Origin: Aquimarina muelleri DSM 19832
GTDB taxonomy: Bacteria; Bacteroidota; Bacteroidia; Flavobacteriales; Flavobacteriaceae
Assembly: GCF_000430665.1 (NCBI RefSeq)
Contig: NZ_AUML01000009.1
Location: 62,001-126,000 of the forward strand
Direction: 5' to 3'
Length of the DNA stretch: 64,000 nt
Under the pieces are notes generated by a model that saw nothing but the letters and a program-made list of their open reading frames with translations, did no database searches and was not told where the DNA came from. The position numbers and the translations under genes were made by a program. This document shows, in pieces, positions 3,828 through 58,248 of the stretch; position 1 is the stretch's first letter, and every line of letters starts with the position of its first letter.

Positions 3828-4256
3828 TTAGTTTTCTCCTTGATTTACAGGTTTTTCCTGACATAATTCTATCAAAACCCCATTGGTGCTTTTTGGGTGT
3901 AAAAAGGCAACTAATTTGTTATCGGCACCAGATTTAGGAGTTTTGTTGATTAATTGAAAGCCTTCTTTTTCTAATCGATCCAATTCTATTTCGATATTTT
4001 CTACATCAAAAGCAATATGATGTATACCTTCTCCTTTTTTTGCTATAAATTTTCCGATAGGGCCATCCTCATTGGTGCTTGCCAATAACTCTATCTTACT
4101 GTCGCCTACTTTAAAAAAAGAAGTAAGTACGGCTTCGCTTTCTACAGCCTCTTGTTTATATGGGGGTACTCCCAAAAGTTTTTCATATAGTTTATTTGCT
4201 TGCTCTATATCTTTTACAGCAATGCCTAAGTGTTCTATTTTCTTGATAGGATTCAT
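3828..4256 (-). CDS. mce: Methylmalonyl-CoA epimerase
   Basis: The enzyme interconverts the R and S forms of methylmalonyl-CoA between propionyl-CoA metabolism and the B12 mutase. The 142-residue protein is a single vicinal-oxygen-chelate domain pair. The expected metal ligands are visible: His in IEHLGIAV near the N-terminus, His in GIHHIAFDV at mid-protein, and Glu in GVLIELCQ near the C-terminus. The length is normal. Its neighbour order (mce near rbfA and a LolC/E-type permease) is common in flavobacteria, although here the two flanks are divergent. Confidence 0.93.
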   Translation of the reverse strand: MNPIKKIEHLGIAVKDIEQANKLYEKLLGVPPYKQEAVESEAVLTSFFKVGDSKIELLASTNEDGPIGKFIAKKGEGIHHIAFDVENIEIELDRLEKEGFQLINKTPKSGADNKLVAFLHPKSTNGVLIELCQEKPVNQGEN

Positions 4257-13944: not shown

Positions 13945-14194
13945 GTTGTTAATTTTGTGTTAGATATATATGTCAAAGTTGGTTTTCTTACTGTCGTTAT
14001 ACTATAGTAATGCTTACAAAATAATTGCTGTTTTTTTAGAAAAAATATAAATGCTTAAAAAGTAAAGCCTCAAACGATTTTGAAGTAGTTTATTTCTTTT
14101 GGTTAAAAAAGAATAATGAGGATTAGAAATTAAAGTATAAAAATGCTATTTTTTTAAGTAGCAATTGGGGGTAGGGGGATAAATAAAAAGCAAA

Positions 14195-14425
14195 GGAAAC
14201 AAGCTCGAAGTACTGAGAAACAACCCCAGAGGGCGAAGAAACATACTCGGAGTGTTAGGAAACCTTACAGGAGAGCCAGGAAACATGCTCGGAGTATCAG
14301 GAAATATTACAGGAGAGCTAGGAAACATCCTCGGTGTGTTAGGAAATAAGGTCGGAGTCCTGAGAAACTTCTTCGGAGAGTCAAGAAATAACCTCAGAGT
14401 CCTAAGATATAAGGTTTAAGTATCA
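14195..14425. repeat. 21-bp minisatellite, 11 degenerate units
   Basis: GGAAAC-, AGAAAC- or GGAAAT-like starts recur exactly every 21 bp from 14195 to 14405, giving 11 units with no length change. Units differ at several positions but keep a GGAAACnTnCTCGGAGTnT-like core. Because 21 is a multiple of three, the frame starting at 14183 on the plus strand stays open through ten units and reads a heptapeptide like GNxLGVL alternating with GNxTGEx. It stops in unit 11, and no ATG precedes unit 5. The minus strand is also open over much of it. No gene can be assigned with confidence. Confidence 0.85.
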
Positions 14426-14560
14426 GAAAATATACCGAAACGTTTAAAAAAAATGTAAAAAAGATGGGGTAAAAACACAAAGTTCCGAAAAATGAAACTA
14501 ATATATTTTAATATTGTGCTGTTAAACATAAAATAATAACTTTTAAAATTTACTTTATTT

Positions 14561-15202
14561 ATGAAACAGACACAAATCAATCGGTTAGAAATGGCTCAAG
14601 CAACCGATAACCATCTAAATTTGCATACAGCTATATGGAACACTATTCCTGTTTTTGGAGAAACCAAAAATAGATTAGCACAGCTTATTTCTGAAATCAA
14701 AGAAACGGCCAAAGATCAAAATGAAGCTCAGGTATTTATAGGAAGTTCACAGCGTGAAATTAAAAAAACAATTGCAGATAAAATGGATATTATCGATGAT
14801 GCAATCCAATCGTATGCCGAAGATACCGAAAACGCAGAGTTACTATCCCGATCCAGTAATACCGCTTCCGATTATTTTAAGTTACCTAACGAAGACTTCG
14901 AAACCAAAGTGCTTGCTATGATTCAACTTTCTGAAGATACTTTGCCAGCAATGCAAGAGTATGGAGCGACACAAGAAGAGATCGAAGATGTAAAAATCTT
15001 GGCAAATAATTTTCTGGAAAAAAGACAAAAACCAAGAGCTTTTCAAATAGCTTCTAAAGTAGCTACCTTAAGCTTGGACGATCAATTTAAAGAAATAACA
15101 CAAATCTTAAAAAGACTGGATAGGTTAATGAAACGATTTAAATCCTCTCACCCTACATTTTATATAGGATATAATTCTTCTAGATTAGTGGTAGATAAGT
15201 GA
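14561..15202 (+). CDS. Hypothetical helical protein, 213 aa
   Basis: The protein starts MKQTQINRLEMAQATDNHLNL and is rich in charged helical sequence with heptad-like spacing. It has no signal peptide, membrane segment or recognisable catalytic motif. The centre contains FIGSSQREIKKTIADKMDIIDD and the end is an RLDRLMKRFKSSHPTFYIGYN-like basic segment. I do not recognise the family; the composition suggests a small cytoplasmic helical bundle. It follows the minisatellite by 135 bp and ends before a strong terminator shared with the convergent TonB receptor gene. Confidence 0.7.
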   Translation: MKQTQINRLEMAQATDNHLNLHTAIWNTIPVFGETKNRLAQLISEIKETAKDQNEAQVFIGSSQREIKKTIADKMDIIDDAIQSYAEDTENAELLSRSSNTASDYFKLPNEDFETKVLAMIQLSEDTLPAMQEYGATQEEIEDVKILANNFLEKRQKPRAFQIASKVATLSLDDQFKEITQILKRLDRLMKRFKSSHPTFYIGYNSSRLVVDK

Positions 15203-52016: not shown

Positions 52017-52529
52017 ATGAAGAGGCTACCCATTTTTATAATGTTACTAGTATCTGTGATCAAAGGAGTAAGCCAAGAAAGCGAAGAAGGCTATCCAAAT
52101 GAAGAAGAAATACAGAGTGAAGAAGAGGTGCAGGAGGATGAAAAAGAAGAAAATAACTACTTTGACATCTATGAATATTTTAATTTTACCAATGATGAAT
52201 ATTCTAATGCTATGGATAAGGTGAATGATATGGATCCAGAAGATCAAAATACCCTATATGCATTGGTAGTAGAGGTTCAAAAAGATAACGTATTAAAAGA
52301 TCGTTTGTTTGGGGAGTTGATTGCAAAACCCAAAAAAAAGGAGCCTTTCAGTGGTAAAGACAGCCCAGGGTTTACCTGTGTCCTAAAGGGCCTTATAGAA
52401 AACAAAACCATATATAATGAGGTTATTAAGGATGGAGGCTCTGAGGATCAGGCCAGAAATGCCGCAGCCCTCGCCGAAAGAACTGTCCGTAGAAAATGTG
52501 GTATCGCCAAAAAAGTGAATAAGCCATAA
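52017..52529 (+). CDS. Hypothetical exported acidic protein, 170 aa
   Basis: A short signal peptide (RLPIFIMLLVSVIKGVSQ) precedes a very acidic low-complexity stretch (about 20-45, mainly Glu) and then a helical domain with two cysteines (GFTCVLKGL and RRKCGIAKK) that could pair. The end resembles a small helical bundle with AAALAERTVRRKC. The family is not recognised. It is the last gene before a repeat-rich 600-bp gap that leads to the TPR-CHAT gene. Confidence 0.6.
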   Translation: MKRLPIFIMLLVSVIKGVSQESEEGYPNEEEIQSEEEVQEDEKEENNYFDIYEYFNFTNDEYSNAMDKVNDMDPEDQNTLYALVVEVQKDNVLKDRLFGELIAKPKKKEPFSGKDSPGFTCVLKGLIENKTIYNEVIKDGGSEDQARNAAALAERTVRRKCGIAKKVNKP

Positions 52530-53040: not shown

Positions 53041-53177
53041 CTCAAAAAGATACAGCTTAACGTAATGACATTGCCTGAGCCTGTCGAAGCACTAAGGATG
53101 AAAACAGAATTATTTTTAATCTGGTAAGAAATCTGTTGCTCTTTTTTAGTTTCTTTGTTAGTACTTATATATCTCTT

Positions 53178-56100
53178 ATGAAACCTATATTCTCATTTTT
53201 TAATACTTTTTGTTTAGTCGTTGTTTTTTTTATAACCTCCTTACATACTATCAATGCACAAACAGCAAAGGATACGTTATTAGCATACCAATACTATCAA
53301 AAAGCAGATTCTTTATTTGCAGATAGAAAGTTAAATGATGCTATTACATATTATCAAAAAGCATTACCTATATATAAAAAGGCAAAAGCTTGGGAAAGGG
53401 TGGCAAGTTGTTATAATCAGATTTCAGAAAACCAATGGAGAAGTAGGAAGTTGGAAGAATCCTTAACCAACGCTAAAAAAGCTTTAGAGATTAGTACTAC
53501 GTATTTGGCGAAAAATAATATAGAAGCGGCTATTGCAAATAGTAATATGGGATCAACATATTATGAAAAATCCGATTTAAAAACCTCTCTTATATACCAT
53601 CAAAAATCTCTTGCAATAAAACAAAAAATGTTTCCTGTAGACGATAAAGGTATCGCTGTAACATATAGTAATCTAGGGATATTGTATAATGCTATTTCTG
53701 AATATGAAAAAGCGATCAGTTTTCATCAAAAATCTTTAGATATCAATATTAAACTTTTTGGAGAAGAACATACAAGAGTTGGAATTGATTATTATAATCT
53801 TGCTAATACTAGTAGTAATTTAGAAAAACATTCTCAAGCCCTAAATTTTTATCAAAAAAATTTAGATATAACAATTAAAAACAAGGGAAGTAATCATATT
53901 TTAGTAGGCTATAGTTATGTTGGTTTAGCTAGTTATTTTAATGATTTAAAACAATATGATAATTCTTTAAGTTATTATCAAAAAGCATTATCTATTTTTC
54001 AAAAGCACGAAAGTTTATATCCATTATTTGTTTCTTATATAAACATTGGGCTTGTCTTAACCAATAAGGGAGAATATAGTAACGCTTTATTATATCATCA
54101 AAAGGGCTTAAATATTGGATTAAAAATAGTGAATAAAAATCATCCCAGTCTGGGTTTAAGTTATTGGAATATAGGTTTTATTTATGACAAAAAAGAAGAA
54201 AAAGATATTGCTTTAGACTATTATCAAAAAGCGTTGGAAATAAGCAAATATAATTATGGGGAAAATCATGTAGATATTGGAGATTTGTACATAAACATAG
54301 GTAGTAGTTATATGGACAAAAAAGATTATGAAAAATCATTAGCATATTATACGAATGCATTAAATATATATAAGAAAGTTTTTAAAGATGAGAATTCAGA
54401 GCATTCAAAATCATATTTAAGTCTTTCAATACTTTACTTAAAGCAAGATAATTATGAAGAAGCACTGGTAAATGCAAAAAAAAGCTTAAAAATATTAGAA
54501 TATTTATATGGAGAGCAAAACCTTATAGCTGTTGAATCCTTAAATCAAATAGGAACCGTTTATACCAAACTAGAAAATTTTCAAGAAGCAATTGTTTATT
54601 TTGATAAGGCCATATTAGCGAACACCAAAAAAGAGGAACGTATAAACCCTAAAAGTGTTTTTGATCCCAATCGATATTATAATGTAAATCAGTTATTAGA
54701 AACCTTACAAGGAAAAGCCAAAACATTCCAATCCCGATATTTAAAAACCAAAAACATATCCGATCTGGATCAAAGTCTTTCTATTTATGAGCAAGCAGAT
54801 ACAATTATTAATCATATTAGACAATCTTTTCAGGACTATCAAGATAAAATTTCCTTTGGTAACATAGCAAAAGAAGTATATCAAGGAGCGATAGAAGCAC
54901 AAATATTACTCTATAAACACAAGGAAAATCAAAAAGCACTAGAACAAGCGTTTTATTACGCCGAAAAAAGTAAAGCCAATACGCTTATAGATTTGTTAAA
55001 CGATTCTAATGCCAAAAACTATACAGGATTGCCAGCAGACCTCGTAGAATTAGAAAAAAGCCTAAGAGTAGATCGTGCTTTTTATCAATCCAACATTAGT
55101 AAAGAGCAATCCAATACAAATCAAGACACTTCTAAAATACAAGAATACGAAAACAAGCTGTTTGACATTAACAGAAAGCAAGATTCTGTAACCAAAATCT
55201 TAGAAAAAAACTATCCTAAATACTACCAGCTTAAATATCAAAACAATATTGTAAGTGTTAAGCAGATCCAGAAACAATTAGAGGACAACACAACTTTGTT
55301 AGAGTTTTTTACAGCAGATAGTACTACCTATGCATTTACCATATCCAAAAATGATATGGCAGTACACGAGCTGGTTACCCCGCAACTTACCGATAAAGTA
55401 GAAGCACTTCGTGCTAGTGTTATCTCTAAAGACGTAGCAACGTATAAAAAACAGGCACACCTGTTATATACTACTCTTATAGCACCTGTTGCTAATACAT
55501 TAGTAGGCGATAACCTTATCATTATCCCCGATGCCTCTTTATGGCATCTTAATTTTGATCTGTTACTAACAAAAAAGGATGATTCTAATAACCCCGCGCT
55601 TTTATCGTATATGCTGCGGGAGTATGCAATTACATACGCCAATTCTGCAAATCTGTTGTTTCAGGATTTTAAAAACGATCTACAAACAAAAACAAATCCA
55701 GAGTGCCTTGCCTTTTCTTTTTCAGATAGTACACAAATAACGCAGGCGCAAACCATGCGTCTGGCAGCTCTTAGAAATACAGGAGCAGATCTGCCGGGCA
55801 CTCGTAAAGAGATCAAAGCAATATCTAATATTATCGATGGGGAGTATTATTTTGGATCCAATGCCATAGAAGCTAATTTTAAAAAAAATGCAGATAGATA
55901 TGCGATCATACACCTTGCCCTACATGGCGAGGTAGATAACGAACATCCTGAAAACTCAAAGCTGTTTTTTACCAAAACCAAAGACACCCTAGAGGATAAT
56001 AACCTGTATAGCCATGAGCTGTTTGCTTTGGATATACCAGCAGAATTAGCAGTACTTAGTGCATGTAATACAGGAACAGGCAAAATCGCTAAAGGCGAAG

Positions 56101-56453
56101 GTATAATGAGTTTGGGTACAGCTTTTCAATATGCAGGCACCAAAAGCTTGCTACTAACCAGCTGGGAGGTATCGGATAAAACTACTCCAGAGATTATGCA
56201 GTATTTTTATACCAACCTTAAAGCGGGTATGAATAAAGGAAAAGCATTACAGCAAGCCAAATTACAATACCTTACCACAGCAAATATAAACCGTACCTAT
56301 CCTTTTTATTGGGGAGGGTTTTATCTGGTAGGAAATCCAGACCCCATGCATTTTGCAGATAATACGCTTGTATACTGGATCCTTGGATTGGGCATTTTAA
56401 GTATTCTTGTTTTTGTTGGATGGCAGTACAGGCAACGATTAAAAAACAGATAA
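53178..56453 (+). CDS. Exported TPR-CHAT domain protein (caspase-like)
   Basis: The 1091-residue protein starts at ATG 53178, the start that places a signal peptide ending TINAQ near residue 28; an ATG 14 codons upstream is also in frame. About ten TPR repeats of 40-42 residues follow (about 35-480, recurring YYQKALxI), then a linker coiled coil and a CHAT domain (about 680-1050). The caspase-type dyad is His916 in HLALHGEVDN and Cys963 in LSACNTGTG. A C-terminal membrane helix (YWILGLGILSILVFVGW) ends in RQRLKNR. It should be a periplasmic, inner-membrane-anchored protease-like protein. Partner and target are unknown. Confidence 0.9.
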   Translation: MKPIFSFFNTFCLVVVFFITSLHTINAQTAKDTLLAYQYYQKADSLFADRKLNDAITYYQKALPIYKKAKAWERVASCYNQISENQWRSRKLEESLTNAKKALEISTTYLAKNNIEAAIANSNMGSTYYEKSDLKTSLIYHQKSLAIKQKMFPVDDKGIAVTYSNLGILYNAISEYEKAISFHQKSLDINIKLFGEEHTRVGIDYYNLANTSSNLEKHSQALNFYQKNLDITIKNKGSNHILVGYSYVGLASYFNDLKQYDNSLSYYQKALSIFQKHESLYPLFVSYINIGLVLTNKGEYSNALLYHQKGLNIGLKIVNKNHPSLGLSYWNIGFIYDKKEEKDIALDYYQKALEISKYNYGENHVDIGDLYINIGSSYMDKKDYEKSLAYYTNALNIYKKVFKDENSEHSKSYLSLSILYLKQDNYEEALVNAKKSLKILEYLYGEQNLIAVESLNQIGTVYTKLENFQEAIVYFDKAILANTKKEERINPKSVFDPNRYYNVNQLLETLQGKAKTFQSRYLKTKNISDLDQSLSIYEQADTIINHIRQSFQDYQDKISFGNIAKEVYQGAIEAQILLYKHKENQKALEQAFYYAEKSKANTLIDLLNDSNAKNYTGLPADLVELEKSLRVDRAFYQSNISKEQSNTNQDTSKIQEYENKLFDINRKQDSVTKILEKNYPKYYQLKYQNNIVSVKQIQKQLEDNTTLLEFFTADSTTYAFTISKNDMAVHELVTPQLTDKVEALRASVISKDVATYKKQAHLLYTTLIAPVANTLVGDNLIIIPDASLWHLNFDLLLTKKDDSNNPALLSYMLREYAITYANSANLLFQDFKNDLQTKTNPECLAFSFSDSTQITQAQTMRLAALRNTGADLPGTRKEIKAISNIIDGEYYFGSNAIEANFKKNADRYAIIHLALHGEVDNEHPENSKLFFTKTKDTLEDNNLYSHELFALDIPAELAVLSACNTGTGKIAKGEGIMSLGTAFQYAGTKSLLLTSWEVSDKTTPEIMQYFYTNLKAGMNKGKALQQAKLQYLTTANINRTYPFYWGGFYLVGNPDPMHFADNTLVYWILGLGILSILVFVGWQYRQRLKNR

Positions 56454-56879: not shown

Positions 56880-56900
56880 GTTTCTACTAATCCCATTTAA

Positions 56901-56955: not shown

Positions 56956-57004
56956 ACGGTCTTTAGGGTACATCCAAATATTAATCGAACTCGCGATTAA
57001 TCCT

Positions 57005-57148
57005 ACTTTGTCATCTTAGATTTAAAAATATATCCATCCCAACCTTCCTTCAAAGGAAGGAGTAAAAGCCTCCCTTTGAAGAGAGATTTAGAGGGATGTT
57101 AATGGTACATATAAAAATCAAATAAAAGCAGATATAAGATGACAAATT
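57005..57148. repeat. Foldback element with TTTGTCATCTTA ends
   Basis: TTTGTCATCTTA (57007-57018) and its exact complement (57135-57146) bound a 140-bp unit; matches continue imperfectly outside and inside. Within it, CATCCC pairs with GGGATG and CCTTCCTTTGAAGG-type arms form a second hairpin. It has no coding capacity. Confidence 0.7.
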
Positions 57149-57210
57149 AGGGTTGATAGCGTGCTCAATACCAGTGTCTTGAATTTTGAAAAACATAACA
57201 TTTTAGTTCT

Positions 57211-57258
57211 TTTACCCCATACCTGCAAGGGGGTACCCCCTTGCAGGTATGGGGTAAA
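57211..57258. repeat. Perfect 48-bp palindrome
   Basis: Two exact 24-nt arms (left TTTACCCCATACCTGCAAGG, then GGGT) meet at GT|AC with no spacer. The core is much richer in G+C than the surrounding DNA. It directly precedes the nested stem at 57259-57446. Confidence 0.95.
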
Positions 57259-57446
57259 GCCCACCCAGAGGTGGTTCGAGCCGATAATTTATCGCTTCGA
57301 AGGGTCATTGTGCCCCCCTTTGGCCCATAAACAGACCCTTATAAGGGATAATTTTTGGGCTAAAGGGCTTACCAGAAGGGGTAAAAGCGATATATTTTGG
57401 GGTTAGAGCCCGCTCCAAGGTACTTCGAACTACCTCTGGATGGGCT
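57259..57446 (+). other. Nested inverted-repeat island, candidate structured RNA or foldback element
   Basis: The outer arms (57259-57280 and 57425-57446) pair over 22 positions with one mismatch and two G-U pairs if read as plus-strand RNA. Inside, AATTTATCGCTT pairs with AAGCGATATATT, then CCCTTTGGCCCATAAA with TTTTTGGGCTAAAGGG, again with one G-U. The apex is the perfect CCCTTATAAGGG. An alternative pairing links AAGGTACTTCGAA (57417-57429) with TTCGAAGAACCTT (57466-57478). Frames open across it on both strands look like by-products. Nothing recognisable is encoded. Confidence 0.7.
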
Positions 57447-57852
57447 AGAAGTACTTCGGTGACCTTTCGAAGAACCTTGACAATCATTACTACCTTAGTT
57501 GGGTATAAGAAATTGAAATAAAAAACCGTTAGATTGAGCAATTCTCTGTCAAAACAAGGTTTCCCTAATTCAAAATAACCGTTCCCTCATTCGATATTTT
57601 ATAAAAAAGGTTTGATTGTTACTTTTGAGTAAACCAATGAATATATGCACACTTTGCTCTAATGCATGACTTTAGAAAAAAGGAATTTCAAATAAAGTAA
57701 AGGGATAAGATAAAATTGTAGTAGGTGCAAATAGAGTAAAATTTACATAGATTCTCTAAAATTTATAGGATGGATGTTGGAGGAAATAATTTTAGGTTAG
57801 TTAGTTGAAAAGAAACGAATGGGGCAATGGGGTAGTCCTGTTCGTTTTGATC

Positions 57853-57888
57853 AAAAAGAGCTTCTTTAAGTAGAAGCTCTTTTTTTTA
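57853..57888. terminator. Terminator between convergent or orphan transcripts
   Basis: AAAAAGAGCTTCT and AGAAGCTCTTTTTTTT form a strong stem with T-runs on both strands. On the minus strand it ends the 105-aa exported protein gene (stop at 57931); on the plus strand it would stop any transcript from the 57211-57850 region, which holds no accepted gene. Confidence 0.85.
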
Positions 57889-57930: not shown

Positions 57931-58248
57931 TTATTTTTTAGGAGTAAACCATTCTCCTCTAGAGTTGGTGTATGCCGTTTTTGTACTGTTATCCATTGTC
58001 AAAACCAATTTATAATTACCAGTTTTGTCGGTATAAGCTTCAGAAATAGTTGCCCCCGGAAAATCTTTTTCTACAGCAGCTTTAATAATTTCAGAAAGTT
58101 TATCTGTAGGAAATTCTTCATAATCTTCTTGGTTGGTAGTGGCTTCTGTTTTTGTGATAGGCAAAACTTCTTCTGCTTGTTGTGCAGATGTAATTGTAGA
58201 GGATAACGATATAGCGCATATAGCTAAAAGAACAGGTATCTTTTTCAT
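57931..58248 (-). CDS. Small exported PepSY-like protein
   Basis: The 105-residue protein has a signal peptide (IPVLLAICAISLSSTITSAQ), an acidic linker, and a mature C-terminal domain of about 60 residues. Its sequence pattern (LSEIIKAAVEKDFPGATISEAYTD, then KLVLTMDNSTKTAYTNSRGEW) resembles the helix-strand-strand PepSY-like fold of small periplasmic Bacteroidota proteins. The function is unknown. It is isolated between the terminator at 57853 and the divergent reductase gene. Confidence 0.7.
   Translation of the reverse strand: MKKIPVLLAICAISLSSTITSAQQAEEVLPITKTEATTNQEDYEEFPTDKLSEIIKAAVEKDFPGATISEAYTDKTGNYKLVLTMDNSTKTAYTNSRGEWFTPKK

Follow-up and report, generated by a model that had tools for sequence, protein, structure and literature searches.

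The GC-rich, self-complementary island described here, which lies in a window of 64,000 nucleotides from the Aquimarina muelleri DSM 19832 genome (the window being the whole stretch of DNA analysed), is a stray, orphan array, noncoding and made up of about 13 degenerate 21-bp units, and is probably not a stand-alone RNA gene. The array belongs to a kind that occurs throughout the phylum and accompanies the genes of two unrelated families of helical proteins, termed here A and B; it lies 3′ of the gene in family A and 5′ of it in family B. In this genome and in the genus, the home position of the array is downstream of the family-A gene, the genome's own copy of which is carried by contig C1. 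Since arrays of this type are so often found beside genes of one family or the other, they point to an undescribed gene-plus-array module. The favoured account taken as a whole, i.e., an orphan of the gene-linked type of array that acts as a scaffold at the level of DNA, has in our judgement an even chance of being right. A preliminary description of this DNA, made from the letters alone, had drawn attention to the island; the 21-bp periodicity, five further copies and a second 21-bp array at about 14190–14430 go beyond it.

The element (57212–57486, without strand, ends accurate to about 15 bp on either side) is composed of about 13 degenerate units of 20–22 bp, with a mode of 21 bp, many of which begin with TTCGAR or TAAAAG according to a unit list that was read by eye. 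One end of the array is formed by the perfect 48-bp palindrome that the preliminary description had reported (57211–57258, core GGGGGTACCCCC), in which 24 of 24 pairs are complementary. Next to it lies the left arm of an outer stem (57259–57279), which pairs with the right arm at 57425–57445 through 19 Watson-Crick pairs, one G-U and one A-C among 21; the palindrome and both arms are strandless features. The stem had been placed at 57259–57280 and 57425–57446, so it does exist, but in a register shifted by one base, as only 5 of 22 positions pair in the original placement. The competing pairing proposed between 57417–57429 and 57466–57478 is present as well (12 of 13 Watson-Crick pairs), and so is the difference in composition, the island having 50% GC against 35% in the left flank, 30% in the right flank and 33% in the whole window. 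The anatomy as a whole, including its place among the gene-linked arrays, can be regarded as highly secure.

When folded on both strands, as had been suggested, and compared with 200 dinucleotide shuffles, the island reaches −143.5 kcal/mol on the plus strand (z −11.1, with 9 G-U pairs in total in the optimal fold) and −134.7 kcal/mol on the minus strand (z −8.9), the plus strand being somewhat stronger. It folds on both strands because it is built of inverted 21-bp units. The earlier argument for a folded RNA was that the imperfections of the stem are G-U pairs only on the plus strand; one plus-strand wobble is indeed found in the outer stem, but there is one minus-strand wobble too, so the argument holds only in part. 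The terminator announced at 57853 corresponds to a terminator-like inverted repeat (57853–57884) that adjoins the 3′ end of a neighbouring minus-strand gene (57931–58248). It is not counted with the element; relatives without the island also conserve this region, so the repeat is not necessarily part of an RNA gene. A scan of the window against Rfam at gathering thresholds gave no match at the island, the sole match being a tRNA elsewhere in the window, and a permissive scan returned only matches under the gathering scores. With no Rfam match, wobbles that overall favour neither strand and a terminator region that is present without the island, the idea of an RNA gene on the plus strand, folded and equipped with a terminator of its own, is unsupported, whereas the wider statement, that the element is noncoding, self-complementary and of unexplained nature, was correct.

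The Aquimarina muelleri DSM 19832 genome (4.9 Mb, 100 contigs) contains six copies of the element by sequence search, and the same six are retrieved by the palindrome core with at most one mismatch; according to ORF listings, all of them sit between larger ORFs. The five other copies are 81–90% identical to the window copy over the matched part. Two copies, C2 and C53, are 97% identical to each other across 279 bp and have unrelated flanks. The palindrome arms vary among the six copies yet stay complementary, with only 3 of 120 pairs failing within 20 positions of the centre, and at one palindrome pair C2 and C53 differ by a compensated double change (A to G plus T to C), which could result from selection or from hairpin-templated correction of DNA. 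One of the six copies is located about 380 bp downstream of the genome's own family-A gene on contig C1. One copy is interrupted near a contig end by a foreign ORF, which we take to be an IS982-type transposase; Pfam gave no family for this ORF fragment. Neither terminal inverted repeats nor a target duplication were recognised in the alignment of C2 with C53 or in that of the six copies. Orphan arrays would spread as whole units of about 280 bp. Exact-pattern scans of viral and genome collections with the sequence of these copies returned nothing, and a match of GGGGGTACTCCC at position 4162 of the window was taken as chance because it falls inside an ORF.

The window copy lies in a segment peculiar to this genome (56887–57548, without strand): homology to relatives breaks at 56886 and resumes at 57549, exactly so in five of the eight relatives compared. 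In L231 and L241, where the intervals were read, the corresponding site is occupied by about 787 bp with a DUF434/DUF5616-type gene (in L231 Pfam DUF434 2e-17, DUF5616 1e-54), and the same spacing of the interval in other relatives suggests that they, too, have such a gene there; in L238 only about 510 bp separates the flanking genes. No array was found at this site in any of the nine relatives that have both flanking genes (score >6), which makes the window copy a derived orphan. Here, then, about 787 bp was replaced by 662 bp that holds the element and another hairpin region. The latter, a separate imperfect inverted-repeat region (56984–57169, without strand; 38 nt at 79% and 29 nt at 76%), is situated directly left of the element within the same replaced segment and may be another dispersed repeat. 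The earlier suspicion of a transposon-type foldback is borne out to the extent that there are six copies and that relatives lack the element at this site. In five relatives (L231, L232, L233, L234 and L236) an array is seen upstream of the orthologue of window gene 53136–56453, in four of them between the orthologues of 53136–56453 and 52017–52529, at a distance of about 4–8 kb from the window-type site where both are on one contig. The presence of an array on the far side of this large neighbouring gene makes local movement near the window locus possible but unproven. Neither of the genes on the two sides of the element was assigned to a family by Pfam; the gene labels S24-like, PepSY-like, CHAT, HAD and IS982 are presumptive readings on our part.

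All 19 copies tested, which come from several genomes, show a 21-bp lag that is the strongest or nearly the strongest (z 3.6–8.1), usually accompanied by lags 42 and 63; for the window element, lag 21 has a z of 5.6 and lag 42 a z of 5.0 (200 dinucleotide shuffles). When lags 5–69 were scanned in these 19 copies, 21, 42 and 63 were prominent and 36 was not among the six top lags listed. Tandem Repeats Finder likewise gives periods of 21 and 42 for the arrays, and their units alternate in a 42-bp super-period. In a scan of the whole window the stretch at about 14190–14430 scores 8.5 and the element 6.9, with other periods of 12–31 reaching at most 5.9. The sequences of the units differ widely among clades and the period is constant. 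Across 26 home-clade arrays, TTCGAA was observed 58 times against 2.6 expected; outside this clade TTCN{0,1}GAA is near chance (2 of 9 arrays with 1.7 expected, 5 of 16 with 3.8 expected) and the total of palindromes barely exceeds expectation (194 vs. 179, 306 vs. 298), with single clade-specific palindromes being enriched. No palindrome common to the whole phylum emerged. By eye, G-rich motifs of the GGGGTAC type often lie within or at the end of arrays (L288 and L296 in Kordia; L176, L179 and L173 in other genera), and in Kordia a palindrome of this type seems to mark the centre at which two inverted half-arrays meet.

Within the genus, relatives of the element were often located next to one gene, that of a helical protein of about 160 aa (family A), with the array directly 3′. 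This linkage was scored by the period alone, in 600 bp on each side of the gene, with a threshold of 6.5 and no use of the element sequence. Under these terms a 21-bp array is present 3′ in 34 of 50 family-A loci of the genus and 5′ in 0 of 45; in the phylum, 15 of 29 loci carry it 3′ and 1 of 29 carries it 5′. Fourteen other periods between 15 and 29, searched downstream of family A as a control, gave when combined 3 matches in the genus and 2 in the phylum. The genus set, which consists of 30 loci returned by the search and 20 more divergent, hand-picked ones, is partly circular, because some of those loci are where the link first came to light; this does not apply to the phylum set (29 of 30 fetched loci, the own locus being removed) or to family B in other genera. 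Sixteen of the 50 genus loci and 14 of the 29 phylum loci fall below the threshold; one of them, the phylum locus L162, has a stronger 26-bp period (10.2). Among named genomes, mostly Aquimarina together with Kordia, Galbibacter, Chryseobacterium, Riemerella and others, the array is 3′ of family A in 42 of 60 loci vs. 5′ in 0 of 55; of 63 loci three were too short to be used, the species overlap partly with the other family-A set, and three Chryseobacterium and two Galbibacter loci are under the threshold. Family A is present in 31 of 395 genomes sampled across the phylum, and several paralogous modules occur per chromosome.

The family-A model is all-helical with long helices (pLDDT 87, pTM 0.69) and the proteins are acidic, with a pI below 6 in 41 of 49. 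No assignment was obtained for the family in Pfam, NCBIfam, PHROGs and PADLOC, which gave weak matches only, and Nop is absent from the Pfam matches of three members at E up to 1. The model has no match in the PDB by Foldseek at E 0.001; the best VIA-align Z of 4.5 reflects a likeness of arrangement only, with no match worth naming, though a remote structural likeness may exist. No relatives of family A were found in plasmid, phage and viral-contig collections. In several family-A loci a terminator-like hairpin can be seen by eye between gene and array. A universal third neighbour besides families A and B was looked for among the ORFs that lie up to 1.4 kb 3′ of the family-A gene, and none was found. 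In some clades small ORFs that read as HTH-like lie beside family-A arrays (7 + 3 of 143 loci). One kind is located 3′ of the array (L140, L146, L148 and L155–L158; Pfam HTH_11 5e-4, below the cut-off) and the other between gene and array (L268, L288 and L296; Pfam no family); these recurrent ORFs are candidate DNA-binding partners.

Family B is represented in the window itself. The second array (14190–14430, plus strand), which is the best periodic stretch of the window for periods 12–31, has a 42-bp super-period (Tandem Repeats Finder: 14238–14348, period 42) and is directly followed by a family-B gene (14561–15202, plus strand) encoding a protein of 213 aa with a pI of 5.4, whose model is all-helical with long helices (pLDDT 90, pTM 0.61). 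All 22 family-B loci were located by coordinates, the relatives having E values from 3e-12 to 9e-4, and the array is 5′ in 16 of the 22 (the own locus included) and 3′ in 0 of 21. Neither Pfam nor NCBIfam assigns the family, the best weak match being DUF4404 (E 7e-4, below the cut-off). That A and B could be one family was rejected, as their profile comparison gave a probability of 1.1.

The arrays are noncoding. None of nine array pairs shows codon-position bias, whereas mismatches in the adjacent gene peak at the third position in all nine. As the period is divisible by three and some arrays keep a long open frame (up to 142 codons among 13 loci), the repeats might be thought to descend from coding heptads, seven codons of a coiled coil making up 21 bp; this is largely refuted by the absence of codon-position bias, in none of the 13 loci does a frame stay open across all 500 bp, and the arrays lie after a stop codon or before a start, so that hardly any credence is left for it. 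The arrays are mostly conserved islands: in 9 of 13 pairs (one practically tied) they are more alike than the remaining 3′ DNA, with an identity of typically 0.8–0.9 vs. 0.4–0.6, e.g., 0.89 vs. 0.41. The four exceptions are from one clade in which the flank holds another ORF and the array is less conserved than the flank. Units within one array are very unlike each other, yet each is kept between close species, and orthologous arrays align unit by unit with gaps of 0–2.6% in five of eight groups (about 9%, with identity of 43–67%, in the other three), so a CRISPR-like turnover of units between close relatives was rejected. The ratio of indels to substitutions is 0.033 in arrays vs. 0.035 in flanks; no extra protection of the phase is thus seen, and suppression of indels was dropped as a proposal.

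Paired positions vary less than unpaired ones (18% vs. 38% in five orthologous arrays). At the inverted-repeat pairs of three alignments 25 G-U and 19 A-C wobble changes were counted, i.e., 7 vs. 1 in the genome's own five copies, which leans to the plus strand, and 6 vs. 8 and 12 vs. 10 in relatives; the five orthologous arrays have 4 vs. 8 types. That G-U and A-C changes are overall about equal is expected of the symmetry of double-stranded DNA and not of an RNA folded from one strand. Compensatory stem changes, which the preliminary description had expected in homologues of an RNA, are few: among the consensus pairs, two-sided changes affect 4 of 66, 2 of 37 and 4 of 39, and in the orthologous arrays 1 of 55. 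In 31 of 38 gene-linked arrays the better fold is that of the strand antisense to the gene.

How, then, might such arrays work? The period of two turns, the strand-neutral symmetry, the noncoding conservation and the terminator-like hairpin between gene and array, seen by eye at several loci, favour an array that operates at the level of DNA. It would act as double-stranded DNA, in which units of two helical turns (2 × 10.5 bp) would bring a site that is specific to the clade, and often palindromic, to the same face of the helix each time, allowing a protein complex to assemble along the array in phase. This complex would include the adjacent helical protein, either by itself or together with a partner that binds DNA; orphan arrays would provide additional places of assembly or be remnants. 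A mechanism of this kind, with the array phased at two helical turns, is put forward tentatively, at somewhat less than even confidence, and several points count against it: there is no universal palindrome, compensatory changes are few, indel protection is not measurable, the wobbles of the own copies lean to plus and the antisense strand mostly folds better. The acidity of the proteins in both families counts against direct binding of DNA. In a more general form, which we put just short of an even chance, the phylum would possess a two-part system in which a small acidic helical protein and a 21-bp array provide a programmable or self-specific nucleic-acid scaffold, whose reach is extended by orphans; the scaffold could consist either of DNA with its sites in phase every two turns or of 42-nt guide RNAs that each comprise two units.

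The main rival of the DNA scaffold is an array that is transcribed, its units of 21 or 42 nt being bound or processed as RNA by the helical protein, in the manner of a TIGR-like guide array or of a type III toxin-antitoxin-like pair, with the window element used in trans. The tight linkage to one helical protein gene would fit it, as would the 42-bp alternation and units that differ within an array but each have their counterpart in close species, as separate guides should; the strong folds, with the preference for antisense, and the one-sided wobbles of the own copies speak in the same direction, and acidic proteins are no argument against a larger RNP. It is opposed by wobble changes without overall strand preference, by the lack of an Rfam match and of an assigned RNA-binding or nuclease domain (for family B by Pfam and NCBIfam only), and by the terminator-like hairpin that can be made out by eye between gene and array in several loci. 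On balance we consider it rather unlikely, though to be taken seriously. Less probable still, and in our view improbable, is a plain non-autonomous mobile or foldback (MITE-like) element, whose window copy would have no role and whose hairpins would be transposase sites. Six copies with unrelated flanks, the near-identical pair C2 and C53, the derived state of the window site and the copy interrupted by a presumed IS982-type transposase agree with mobility. However, neither terminal inverted repeats nor a target duplication were recognised in the aligned copies, the window copy replaced a gene instead of inserting cleanly, the Y1 transposase family, which was searched, is absent from three carriers (G004, G027 and G032), and the gene-linked arrays across the phylum would be left unexplained. 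The DNA scaffold remains the preferred reading.

If the linkage reflects function, there is, across a whole phylum, a system of gene plus array that has no name in the libraries searched, which were Pfam, NCBIfam, PHROGs and PADLOC for family A and Pfam and NCBIfam for family B. Searches of open-access PMC papers, judged by titles and abstract beginnings, turned up none that describes such genes with 21-bp arrays next to them. The side on which the array lies (3′ of A, 5′ of B), its exact period and the clade-specific units provide concrete, testable predictions, and an odd GC-rich island becomes a member of a class that is recognisable, and can be searched for, by its period alone. Should the two-part system be real, orphan arrays such as the window copy would extend its reach across the genome.

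Several known systems share features with these arrays. Iteron and centromere (parS-like) arrays also consist of tandem sites about two helical turns apart beside the gene of a partner protein; unlike them, family A has no match on plasmids, several paralogous modules are found per chromosome, and the partners are acidic and without a known DNA-binding domain. In type III toxin-antitoxin systems, as here, a small protein gene lies beside a tandem-repeat array, but the protein models are all-helical here, the units are strongly diverged and the array is 3′ in family A. Bacterial interspersed mosaic elements are mosaics of inverted units, like the present arrays. Enterobacterial MITE-like intergenic units are reportedly small, noncoding and dispersed between genes (PMC2759123), and the six copies at unrelated sites agree with a MITE or foldback element; the 21-bp period and the fixed partner gene distinguish the arrays from such units and from the mosaic elements alike. 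With REP/REPIN sequences and their RAYT transposases the arrays share extragenic palindromic repeats in several genomic copies, but there are only six copies here, as arrays of about 280 bp vs. units of 20–40 bp (PMC3733652, PMC3116915, PMC8266576), and they are linked to genes that do not encode transposases. Identity with REP/RAYT was rejected, since the Y1 (TnpA-REP) transposase has 0 Y1_Tnp matches in the same three carrier genomes (G032 carrying the element weakly); there are 8 in the own genome, where such a transposase may have played a part, and Y1 transposases in 60 of 66 genomes of the genus. The rival RNA reading has a parallel in TIGR-Tas, in which a tandem array of mostly 5 to 15 units lies up- or downstream of a single protein gene, and repeats alternate, their sequence being constant within a locus and different between loci (PMC12045711). 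The unit here is 21 (42) bp instead of the 36 given there, and no 36-nt unit with two spacers was found, either among the six top lags listed for any of the 19 copies (lags 5–69) or by Tandem Repeats Finder. Moreover, no Nop domain was found (for family B by Pfam and NCBIfam alone), fixed repeats and free spacers are not seen separated, and the arrays are on Bacteroidota chromosomes, family A having no match in phage, plasmid and viral-contig collections. What the two have in common is an array beside one protein gene, locus-specific repeats and their alternation (PMC12045711), and by this analogy the arrays, although not members by unit length, may work like TIGR arrays, as the main rival to a DNA scaffold would have it.
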